A DNA stretch of 64,000 nucleotides from Flavobacteriaceae bacterium (GTDB taxonomy: Bacteria; Bacteroidota; Bacteroidia; Flavobacteriales; Flavobacteriaceae): positions 17,342-81,341 of the forward strand of contig JALWKK010000102.1 in assembly GCA_027081505.1 (NCBI GenBank), given 5' to 3'. Position numbers and translations under genes: made by a program. Positions 21,992 through 25,998 of the stretch are shown piece by piece. The notes beneath the pieces were generated by a model. That model did no database searches, had not been told where the DNA came from, and worked only from the letters and a program-made list of their open reading frames with translations. Every line of letters begins with the position of its first letter. Position 1 is the stretch's first letter.

Positions 21992-23671
21992 TTAATACGA
22001 ATCATCGTGTATGTTTATTACAGCTCTTCCGCTTGGTTCGTTCATATGTTTAAAGCTTTCGTCCCATTCTAATGCAATTTTTGAACTACAAGCAACCGAT
22101 GGTTCTTGCGGAACACTTAAGGCAGCCGTATCACTCGGGAAATGACTTTCAAAAATGCTTCGGTAGTAAAATTCTTCTTTTGTAGTTGGAGGTTGTATTG
22201 CAAACCTAAAATGAGCGTTTTTAAGTTGTTCGTCTGTTACCTCTTTTTCAACCAGTTCTTTTAAAGTATCAATCCAACTATAACCAACACCATCGCTAAA
22301 TTGTTCTTTTTGACGCCAAGCTACACTTTCGGGTAACATATCTTCAAAGGCTTTGCGAAGTATCCATTTTTCCATACCTCGCTTTGTTTTTTTATCGTTT
22401 CCCGCCATTTTATCTTTTGGATTTAATCGCATCGCCACATCCATAAACTCTTTATCTAAAAAGGGGACACGTCCTTCAATTCCCCAAGCGGCGAGCGCTT
22501 TATTTGCGCGTAAACAGTCGTACATATGTAGTTTTTCTAATTTTCGTACGGTTTCTTGATGAAATTCTTTTGCCGAAGGCGCCTTATGAAAATACAAATA
22601 ACCTCCAAATATTTCATCACTTCCTTCACCCGAAAGTACCATTTTAATTCCCATTGCTTTTATCGCACGAGCCATAAGGTACATTGGTGTAGAAGCACGT
22701 ATGGTAGTAATATCATAAGTTTCTAAATGATAAATAACATCTTTAATAGCATCTATACCTTCTTGAATGGTGAATTTTATTTCGTGGTGAACGGTATCTA
22801 AATAATCGGCTACTTTTCGGGCTGCGATTAAATCCGGAGACCCTTCGAGTCCAATTGCGAAGGAGTGAAGTCGAGGCCACCAAGCCGCTTCTTTATCGCC
22901 ACTTTCTATACGTTTGTCTGCATACATCTTTGCAATAGCCGAAGTAATAGACGAATCCAAACCGCCCGAAAGTAAAACTCCATACGGAACATCGCTCATT
23001 AACTGTCGATGTACAGCTTCTTCCAATGCATTTTTTAATTCGTCTATACTACTGGTGTTGTCTTTAACAGCATCAAATTGCATCCAATCGCGGTGATACC
23101 ATTTTTTTAGCTTACCGTATTTACTGTGTAAATAATGTCCGGGAGGGAATAATTCGATTTTAGAACAAATGCCCTCGAGAGCTTTTAATTCGGAAGCTAC
23201 ATAAAAAGTACCGTTTTTATCCCAACCCATATACAACGGAATAATGCCCATATGATCTCTTGCTATTAGGTATTCGTCTTTTTCTGCATCGTAAAGCGCA
23301 AATCCGAAAATTCCGTTTAAGTCATCTAAAAACTCGGTGCCTTTTTCTTTATAAAGAGCCAAAATAACTTCGCAATCACTTTTGGTTTGAAACTTAAAAT
23401 CGGTTTCTAATTCTTTTCTAATGTTAAGATGATTATATATTTCACCATTTGCAGCGAGGACTAATTTTTTGTCTTCAGAAAACAAGGGTTGTTTTCCTGA
23501 AGTGGGATCTACAATTGCCAATCGCTCGTGGGCTAATATTGCTTTCGGGTGTGAGAAAATCCCACTCCAATCCGGTCCGCGATGCCTAATGATTTTAGAC
23601 ATTGTTAATAGTTGAGGTCTTAATTTTTCAGAAGGTTGCTTTAAGTCAAAAGCGCATACAATTCCGCACAT
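21992..23671 (-). CDS. asnB: asparagine synthase B (glutamine-hydrolysing)
   Basis: MCGIVCAFD N-terminal Cys2 amidotransferase; RGPDWSGI; GVLLSGGLDSS; SGEGSDEIFGGY; GRVPFLDKEFMDVAM. Confidence 0.97.
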   Translation of the reverse strand: MCGIVCAFDLKQPSEKLRPQLLTMSKIIRHRGPDWSGIFSHPKAILAHERLAIVDPTSGKQPLFSEDKKLVLAANGEIYNHLNIRKELETDFKFQTKSDCEVILALYKEKGTEFLDDLNGIFGFALYDAEKDEYLIARDHMGIIPLYMGWDKNGTFYVASELKALEGICSKIELFPPGHYLHSKYGKLKKWYHRDWMQFDAVKDNTSSIDELKNALEEAVHRQLMSDVPYGVLLSGGLDSSITSAIAKMYADKRIESGDKEAAWWPRLHSFAIGLEGSPDLIAARKVADYLDTVHHEIKFTIQEGIDAIKDVIYHLETYDITTIRASTPMYLMARAIKAMGIKMVLSGEGSDEIFGGYLYFHKAPSAKEFHQETVRKLEKLHMYDCLRANKALAAWGIEGRVPFLDKEFMDVAMRLNPKDKMAGNDKKTKRGMEKWILRKAFEDMLPESVAWRQKEQFSDGVGYSWIDTLKELVEKEVTDEQLKNAHFRFAIQPPTTKEEFYYRSIFESHFPSDTAALSVPQEPSVACSSKIALEWDESFKHMNEPSGRAVINIHDDSY

Positions 23672-23729: not shown

Positions 23730-23766
23730 AAAAAAAAAAACCCGCCAAGTTCAAAAACCTGACGGG
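23730..23766 (-). terminator. intrinsic terminator in the asnB 5' leader (candidate attenuator)
   Basis: Minus strand CCCGTCAGGTT TTTG AACTTGGCGGG + T11; 11-bp stem with two G-U pairs, located between the leader ORF and asnB start. Confidence 0.88.
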
Positions 23767-23790
23767 AATAAATATTGCGACAAGTTTTTG

Positions 23791-23838
23791 CTACAGCATC
23801 TTGTTATTATTATTATTATTAAAAATGTTGTTTAGCAT
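23791..23838 (-). CDS. candidate Asn-rich leader peptide MLNNIFNNNNNNKML upstream of asnB
   Basis: ATG CTA AAC AAC ATT TTT AAT AAT AAT AAT AAT AAC AAG ATG CTG TAG on the minus strand; 8 of 15 codons are Asn, immediately upstream of the terminator in front of asnB. Confidence 0.82.
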   Translation of the reverse strand: MLNNIFNNNNNNKML

Positions 23839-23868
23839 AACTTGTATTGTTACTTTTTTACTATGTGG

Positions 23869-23876
23869 CAAATATA
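23869..23876 (-). promoter_or_regulatory. candidate -7 element TATATTTG for the asnB leader transcript
   Basis: Matches the Bacteroidota TAnnTTTG -7 consensus about 31 nt upstream of the leader ATG; no clear -33 TTG at ideal spacing. Confidence 0.55.
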
Positions 23877-24039: not shown

Positions 24040-25998
24040 ATGGCAATAAAAAAAATAATTACGGTTCTTTTTGTTTTTATTTCAATTCTTTCTTATTCAC
24101 AAAAAAAAGAAGAAGTTTTGTTAACCATTAACGATAAACCGGTTTTTGCTTCAGAGTTTAAGAGAGTCTTTAAAAAGAATTTAGATTTGGTTCAAGATGA
24201 TTCTCAAAAAAGTGTAGAGGGTTATTTAGATTTATTTATTGATTACAAACTTAAAATAGCCGAAGCTTATGCACAAGGATTAGATACAACCGCTTCCTAT
24301 ACCAGAGAGTTTAACAAATATAGAGACCAGTTGGCTCGTACTTATATTTATGAAGATGCCATAAAAGAAGAAGTCGCCAAAGAAGCGTATAACAGAGGGC
24401 TTGAGCAAATTAACGCAGATCACATATTAATTAAAGTAAATTTTGATGCTTTGCCACAGGATACGTTAAAGGCGTATAATAAGATTGCCGAAATCAGAAA
24501 AAAAGCAGTTGCAGGTGAAGATTTTAATGAATTGGCAAAAAAATATTCGGAAGAACCGGGTGCAAAAGAACGAGGCGGTAAGTTGGGGTGGTTTTCTGCT
24601 TTTCAAATGGTATATCCTTTTGAAACGGGCGCATATAATACAAAAGTAGGAGCGGTTTCAAAGATTATTAGAACTTCTTACGGCTACCACATAATTAAAG
24701 TTAACGACAGACGTGCCAAAGGAAATGAAGTAAGCGTATCACATATTATGATTTCGCCTAAAAAAAATGACTCTACTTTTAATCCCGAGCAACGCATTAA
24801 CGAGATTTATGCAATGCTTCAACAAGGCGAATCTTTTGAAAGTCTTGCCAAACAATTTTCAGATGATAAAGCTTCCGGAAAAAACGGAGGAAAATTAAGA
24901 CCTTTCGGAAAAGGACAACTGCGAGCGCCAAAATTTGAAGAAGAAGTATTTAAACTAAAAAAAGAAGGAGAAATATCCAAACCCGTACAATCTAAATTCG
25001 GGTGGCATATTATTCGATTAAATGAAATTCTTCCAATAAAATCTTTTGAAGAACAAAAAGCAGAATTGGAAAAACAAGTTTCTAGAGGAGAACGTTCAAA
25101 AGTAATTAATCAAAGTGTTATACAGCGTATTAAAGAAAAATACGGATTTATACAGGGTGAAGCTTACACGTCCTTTTTTAATAAATATGTTTCCGATAGC
25201 ATCTTAAAACTAAAATGGAAGTACACACCAATAGCAAGCAAAGATAACAAGGTATTGTTTACAATTGGAAATAAAAAAGTGTATTTTGATGATTTTGCTC
25301 GCTTTATAGAAAGTAAACAAATAACAACAAGACGCTATAAAACCAAGGAAGCTAAAATTGAAGCCCTGTATGAAGATTTTAAAGCTACAACGATTAAAGA
25401 TTACTCAAAAGTACAATTGGAAAAAGAAAATCCCGAATATGCGGCTATTCTTGATGAATACAGAAACGGATTGCTTATTTTTGATGTAATGGAAAAAAAC
25501 ATTTGGGATAAAGCTAAAAACGATTCGATTGCTTTGGAAAAATTTTATCAAAATAATAAACAAAATTACCTTTGGAAAACAAGAGTAGATGCCATTTTAT
25601 TTTCTGCAACCGATAAAGACGTTGCACAACAAGTAAAACAAATGTTAACCGAGAATAAAACTGCAGACCAAATAAAAGAAACACTAAATAAAGACGGAAA
25701 AGTAGCGGTTATTATAAGTAAAGGCATTTTTGAAATAGACCAAAGAGAACTACCACAAGGATTTGAACCCACACCCGGAATATCAAAAATATATAATCAA
25801 GAAGATTCGTTTGTTATTGTACAAGTAAACGAGGTTTTGCCACCATCAATAAAGCCCTTAGAAGATGTTAAAGGAAAAGTTATTAGCGATTATCAAAACT
25901 ATCTTGAAGAACAATGGATGGCGCAACTTCATCAAAAATACAATGTATCGGTTAGAAAAAAAGCATTAAAAAAATTAAAAAAACAACTTAAATCTTAA
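24040..25998 (+). CDS. periplasmic parvulin-type peptidylprolyl isomerase with two rotamase domains
   Basis: Signal peptide; two PpiC-type segments (NADHILIKV...GGKLGWFSAFQMVYPFE; VSHIMISPKK...GGKLRPFGKGQL). Confidence 0.92.
   Translation: MAIKKIITVLFVFISILSYSQKKEEVLLTINDKPVFASEFKRVFKKNLDLVQDDSQKSVEGYLDLFIDYKLKIAEAYAQGLDTTASYTREFNKYRDQLARTYIYEDAIKEEVAKEAYNRGLEQINADHILIKVNFDALPQDTLKAYNKIAEIRKKAVAGEDFNELAKKYSEEPGAKERGGKLGWFSAFQMVYPFETGAYNTKVGAVSKIIRTSYGYHIIKVNDRRAKGNEVSVSHIMISPKKNDSTFNPEQRINEIYAMLQQGESFESLAKQFSDDKASGKNGGKLRPFGKGQLRAPKFEEEVFKLKKEGEISKPVQSKFGWHIIRLNEILPIKSFEEQKAELEKQVSRGERSKVINQSVIQRIKEKYGFIQGEAYTSFFNKYVSDSILKLKWKYTPIASKDNKVLFTIGNKKVYFDDFARFIESKQITTRRYKTKEAKIEALYEDFKATTIKDYSKVQLEKENPEYAAILDEYRNGLLIFDVMEKNIWDKAKNDSIALEKFYQNNKQNYLWKTRVDAILFSATDKDVAQQVKQMLTENKTADQIKETLNKDGKVAVIISKGIFEIDQRELPQGFEPTPGISKIYNQEDSFVIVQVNEVLPPSIKPLEDVKGKVISDYQNYLEEQWMAQLHQKYNVSVRKKALKKLKKQLKS

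Follow-up and report, generated by a model that had tools for sequence, protein, structure and literature searches.

An asparagine-rich leader peptide before asnB in Flavobacteriaceae is probably part of a transcription attenuator

The asnB gene in the window (the whole 64,000-nucleotide stretch of Flavobacteriaceae DNA analysed here) is preceded by a short Asn-rich open reading frame (ORF) and by an RNA leader with two competing helices. Comparative sequence evidence indicates that this leader is very probably a ribosome-mediated transcription attenuator sensing asparaginyl-tRNA. The original prediction had proposed such control of asnB from the window alone, and it now finds support in a leader, a terminator and an antiterminator that are conserved and show both coding and structural constraint. 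What we observe in the sequences is the ORF and two alternative helices that are conserved and co-vary, the spacing of these helices from the ORF, and an exclusive association with asnB. The strength of the case rests on the antiterminator, the protector strand and the ribosome spacing, none of which figured in the original prediction.

The leader is encoded on the minus strand, where direct reading of positions 23838–23791 gives ATG CTA AAC AAC ATT TTT (AAT)5 AAC AAG ATG CTG TAG, exactly the 15-codon Asn-rich ORF first noted. Its product, MLNNIFNNNNNNKML, is followed by a TAG stop, and the frame is conserved in 48 homologous leaders. Asn accounts for eight of the 15 codons, six of them consecutive (23803–23820, minus strand); we regard this run as the control codons. 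Six AAY codons in a row occur once in the window, compared with 0.00 expected from dinucleotide-preserving shuffles, and the six-Asn-codon run has no second occurrence in the whole 2.1-Mb assembly. A His-run leader was also sought in this assembly; two runs were found, neither of them attenuator-like.

From the leader stop to the ATG of asnB (at 23671) is 119 nt, in agreement with the predicted gap of about 120 nt, and an intrinsic terminator is present in between. The downstream gene (21992–23671, minus strand), the proposed target of regulation, encodes a glutamine-hydrolysing asparagine synthase B of 559 amino acids. This identity, assigned in the original prediction, is established by matches to NF006949 (931.7 bits, cut-off 499) and TIGR01536 (471.4 bits, also over the cut-off). 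On the other side of the leader, the neighbouring gene is divergent (24040–25998, plus strand). The terminator therefore cannot serve the upstream gene and belongs to the asnB leader transcript. The same genome encodes an AsnRS (590.8 bits), and thus tRNA-Asn can be charged from free asparagine. Thirty nucleotides 5′ of the leader ATG is a promoter-like box, TATATTTG (23869–23876, minus strand), which fits the Bacteroidota −7 consensus TAnnTTTG. We assign this box tentatively, because the strict consensus is found within 75 nt 5′ of the ATG in only 4 of 48 leaders against 1.9 in shuffles, which is not clearly above chance.

The 135-nt leader folds at −29.5 kcal/mol, compared with −18.4 ± 3.1 kcal/mol in shuffles (z = −3.6), and the minimum free energy fold consists of segments 1:2 plus segments 3:4, as in classical attenuators. 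All four segments are on the minus strand. Segment 1, the protector (ACAAGTT, 23839–23845), is located directly 5′ of the leader ATG and pairs in this fold with AACTTGT of segment 2. Segment 2 (CAAAAACTTG, 23781–23790), the 5′ strand of the antiterminator, is located directly 3′ of the leader stop. Its alternative partner is segment 3 (CAGGTTTTTG, 23752–23761), the 3′ strand of the antiterminator, which overlaps the terminator in its 5′ arm and loop; the 10 bp that segments 2 and 3 can form are mutually exclusive with the terminator. The terminator itself, formed from segments 3 and 4, is the stem-loop CCCGTCAGGTT-TTTG-AACTTGGCGGG (23741–23766), in which an 11-bp stem has segment 4 as its 3′ arm. 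It is followed in the sequence by a tract of 11 T (23730–23740).

These elements suggest how the switch would operate. A ribosome would translate the 15-codon leader in the wake of RNA polymerase. With ample Asn-tRNA, the ribosome would run to the stop codon and cover segment 2, leaving segments 3 and 4 to pair, and transcription would end at 23740–23730. With little Asn-tRNA, the ribosome would stall in the Asn run, and segment 2, left free, would pair with segment 3 while segment 4 has yet to be transcribed, allowing polymerase to read through to asnB. Without translation of the leader, segments 1 and 2 would pair and termination would be the default. It is from the sequence that we infer where transcription starts, that the ribosome stalls, that polymerase terminates or reads through, and in which direction the switch responds. 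The leader has these sequence and structural features of the leader-peptide attenuator class: an ORF rich in cognate codons, a terminator, an antiterminator that excludes it, an appropriate placement of the stop and Asn codons, and a protector.

Regions upstream of asnB were compared among 104 Flavobacteriaceae loci, almost every one representing a different genus. Of these, 15 have a clear Asn-rich leader of the window's type with an ATG start, and three more (L003, L004 and L043) were found on inspection. The 18 leaders (alignment A1) were built into a covariance model, which was searched against 400 Flavobacteriaceae genomes with E below 1e-8 defining a strong match. Forty genomes contain a strong match, from about 25 genera of one Flavobacteriaceae clade, and in all 40 the match is immediately before asnB. 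The original prediction had pointed to asnB 5′ regions of relatives as the place to look, and the Asn-rich ORF and terminator are conserved there throughout these genera. The carriers are marine flavobacteria and include Aequorivita capsosiphonis, A. aurantiaca, Patiriisocius marinistellae, Luteirhabdus pelagi and Thermobacterium salinum, along with several Flavobacteriaceae MAGs. Matches of 49 bits or less, where inspected, are terminators without an Asn-rich ORF and look generic. A search of 398 genomes across the phylum gave no strong match beyond Flavobacteriaceae.

Most other asnB genes in the family are without the leader, indicating a lineage-specific acquisition and not a general control of flavobacterial asnB. 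Among the asnB genes of named Flavobacterium records examined, none has the leader with one exception, a MAG labelled Flavobacterium sp. NORP82 (L158), which falls within the leader clade. Several individual loci deserve mention. One model match of 48.9 bits (G321:C94:1-93) is cut by a contig end and comes from the same genus as the leader-bearing genome G130; it is probably a truncated true member. Six genomes of genus g130 (G129, G320, G560, G564, G463 and G532) have two asnB-type genes close together, the second with about 48–51% identity to the AsnB of the window. The asnB match at L308 (genome G133) contains two in-frame stops (TGA and TAA) and is possibly a decayed gene or the product of sequencing errors.

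Both alternative helices are preserved among relatives. In an alignment of 48 distinct leaders (A2), which is partly fitted to the terminator model, 98.0% of the pair cells of the terminator are paired, with five pairs changed on both sides, and 97.0% are paired in the antiterminator. Double-change cells number 35 in the terminator against 10.3 in shuffles and 14 in the antiterminator against 5.0, and covariation is 0.302 against 0.192 and 0.188 against 0.142, respectively, the shuffle controls on this 48-row alignment being inflated by related sequences. One pair of the antiterminator is exchanged from A-U to G-C in 13 sequences. The 18-sequence alignment A1, unfitted to any structure, gives a matching picture of terminator and antiterminator. 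Folded separately, all 48 leaders form both structures, with mean energies of −18.5 kcal/mol for the terminator and −8.6 kcal/mol for the antiterminator.

The protector is likewise maintained. The mean energy of the 1:2 duplex over the 48 leaders is −6.15 kcal/mol, compared with −3.43 ± 0.24 kcal/mol for shuffled upstream sequences and −5.67 ± 0.15 kcal/mol when partners are swapped between species; none of 300 trials was as low in either control, although neither wholly removes relatedness among the leaders. In L018 and L238 the two strands have changed together (AAGCAC/GTGCTT and GCACAAG/CTTGTGC), and in a few members (L019, L138 and L241) the pairing is weak or absent.

The distance from the leader stop to segment 2 of the antiterminator helix is identical in 44 of 48 leaders. 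Assuming a footprint like that of the E. coli ribosome, the predicted ribosome edge coincides with the final base of segment 2 when the A site holds the stop codon, and in 37 of 48 leaders it is 4 nt short of that base when the A site holds the last Asn codon. Because the stop spacing is fixed, the antiterminator strand would be covered by a ribosome that has reached the stop but would stay exposed if the ribosome stalls at Asn; the attenuation model demands just this placement of the stop and Asn codons. In L163 and L241 the stop-to-segment-2 distance is 3 nt longer than elsewhere while the Asn-to-helix distance is still 4, which suggests that the latter spacing is the quantity under selection.

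In some relatives the gene upstream of the leader is apparently co-directional and ends a little 5′ of it, raising the question whether the element is the terminator of the neighbouring gene, with the small ORF incidental. The neighbour in the window is divergent, and a conserved antiterminator and a conserved stop spacing would have no role in such a terminator. On these grounds we reject this reading, which we consider very improbable.

In the coding sequence, an ATG ORF of 8–25 amino acids with at least four Asn is present in 45 of the 48 leaders, compared with a shuffle mean of 0.46 and maximum of 3. GTG is the start codon of one leader, and two leaders of the clade have only three Asn codons. 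In-frame Ile, Phe, Leu, Thr, Ser or Lys codons break up the Asn run, as in MSQFVFNNNNINNNRLT, MFTSVINNNFNNNNAKT and MLRSNNFNTNNSNNGKP. The length and interruptions of the run vary freely, and beyond Asn the peptide is unconserved except for a C-terminal tendency to Pro/Thr. This variability bears on whether the leader might be an arrest peptide, acting through nascent-chain contacts, or might act in trans, instead of stalling the ribosome at specific codons. A trans-acting leader peptide has a precedent in peTrpL (PMC7298713). The lack of conservation of all but Asn and the C-terminal tendency is unlike arrest peptides, and there is little chance that the leader works in either of these ways.

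Codon usage in the leaders argues against a repeat that is open by chance. The 48 leaders contain 324 Asn codons, 237 AAT and 87 AAC, and no Asp codon. Within the Asn-rich stretch, AAT (237) and AAC (86) are the commonest codons, AGT occurs three times and GAT or GAC never. The transition that keeps Asn is thus tolerated, and those that lose it are not. An AAT microsatellite beside an ordinary terminator might have been expected from the AT-rich intergenic region and from the make-up of the window's run, five AAT and one AAC. Against it, the run occurs nowhere else in the assembly, other codons interrupt it in frame with the phase kept in 48 leaders, AAT changes to AAC far more often than to Ser or Asp codons (87 AAC; 3 AGT; 0 GAT/GAC), and the run stands at a fixed spacing from a co-varying antiterminator. 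The original prediction had itself raised a mere microsatellite, with no leader at orthologous loci, as the outcome to fear; both the leader and the Asn run proved to be conserved. A drifting microsatellite is refuted by the conserved Asn frame at orthologous asnB loci, and we give it almost no credence.

In Firmicutes, Asn genes are known to be under T-box control, with the same signal, tRNA-Asn charging, and the same kind of target as proposed here, and a T-box-like element or metabolite riboswitch sensing tRNA-Asn or Asn directly was considered for that reason. A T-box binds tRNA directly through its RNA; the conserved parts of the asnB leader are a coding frame and short alternative helices, and no Rfam T-box model matches it, even at E up to 1, so this reading is rejected as scarcely credible. 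No Rfam cis-regulatory family scores above its gathering cut-off. The best match is PyrR with 27.8 bits (cut-off 54), and the only other is a plastid family with 20.3 bits (cut-off 45).

Leader-peptide transcription attenuators control the trp, his, leu, ilv, thr and phe operons of Proteobacteria. The asnB leader shares with them an ORF rich in codons for the end product, an intrinsic terminator, a mutually exclusive antiterminator, a protector, and a stop codon placed to mask segment 2. It is unlike them in sensing Asn, in controlling asnB, in its Bacteroidota host and in having no Rfam match, and also in its geometry, with segment 1 immediately 5′ of the ATG and segment 2 immediately 3′ of the stop. 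Leader peptides were known in Proteobacteria and Actinobacteria before bacilli were added (Naville and Gautheret, 2010; PMC2965389). Actinobacterial examples are the attenuators of trp, leuS and ilvB (PMC1262725); in bacilli, hisS/hisZ have a His leader peptide (PMC2965389). These have the classical architecture outside Proteobacteria but concern other amino acids and genes, and the main texts of both papers contain no asparagine case. Within Flavobacteriaceae, strong clues for leader-peptide attenuation of amino-acid operons were reported in Flavobacterium psychrophilum, where pheA and hisG are among the genes preceded by a conserved 5′ element (Guerin et al., 2021; PMC9723704). The mechanism proposed there is the same as that of the asnB leader; the main text mentions neither asnB nor asparagine. 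A full-text literature search returned no description of an Asn leader-peptide attenuator, though subscription papers were mostly outside its scope and absence is therefore unproven. The literature searched also yielded no experimental proof of leader-peptide attenuation in Bacteroidota. The proposed mechanism of the asnB leader is classical; its asparagine specificity is not described in the papers searched.

When 107 asnB proteins are placed on a tree, the 28 rows with the leader group in one clade (support 99) in which every member, 28 of 28, has the leader and no loss is seen. The device was thus probably gained once in this clade and then kept. A second Asn-rich leader stands before asnB in g11, a distantly placed genus of Flavobacteriaceae whose asnB is about 72% identical to that of the window. 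It is found at 18 of 19 parsed loci (L257–L275); L276 is without it, and L274 has the attenuator but its CDS was not parsed. The g11 leader, for example MIKNNNIRFNNNSLLT, has its own terminator (AAGGTCTAC/GTAGACCTT) and its own antiterminator strand (GTAG...) directly 3′ of the leader stop. Its sequence is unrelated to that of the window's leader and its architecture is alike. The two leader groups are separate in 200 of 200 bootstrap trees, and an AU test does not formally reject a single clade for both (p = 0.08). Based on these observations, the g11 leader is probably a second origin; two origins are favoured, not proven.

A scan of asnB upstream regions in the sister family f2 and in other members of the class gave no convincing Asn leader except at L280 (genome G809, family f67). 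Here, in one genome of f67, a short ORF with ten Asn (MQFRHNGNFGGNHNVNFNIVNSNNNS) lies about 150 nt before asnB. After it, about 20 nt from the gene, comes a GC-rich hairpin that has no T tract. This could be an Asn leader that acts on translation.

The leader would extend the range of amino acids sensed through leader-peptide attenuation to asparagine. It also provides a very complete comparative case for attenuation in Bacteroidota, where the mechanism has so far been suggested for amino-acid operons, and the two unrelated leaders before asnB illustrate well how a regulatory device has probably evolved by convergence. Runaway transcription is ascribed in a 2026 paper to six phyla, Bacteroidota not among them (PMC13323073), which fits transcription-translation coupling in Bacteroidota and is no test of it. 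Because the switch needs a ribosome that keeps pace with polymerase, it would be a ready reporter of such coupling in the phylum. We lean, with a little better than even confidence, towards a broader reading in which an Asn-specific attenuator, of a specificity not previously recorded, arose at least twice in Flavobacteriaceae. In the same reading, the precision of the ribosome spacing implies that translation keeps close pace with transcription in these Bacteroidota, and attenuation would probably be an ordinary form of amino-acid gene control in Bacteroidota that has been overlooked.
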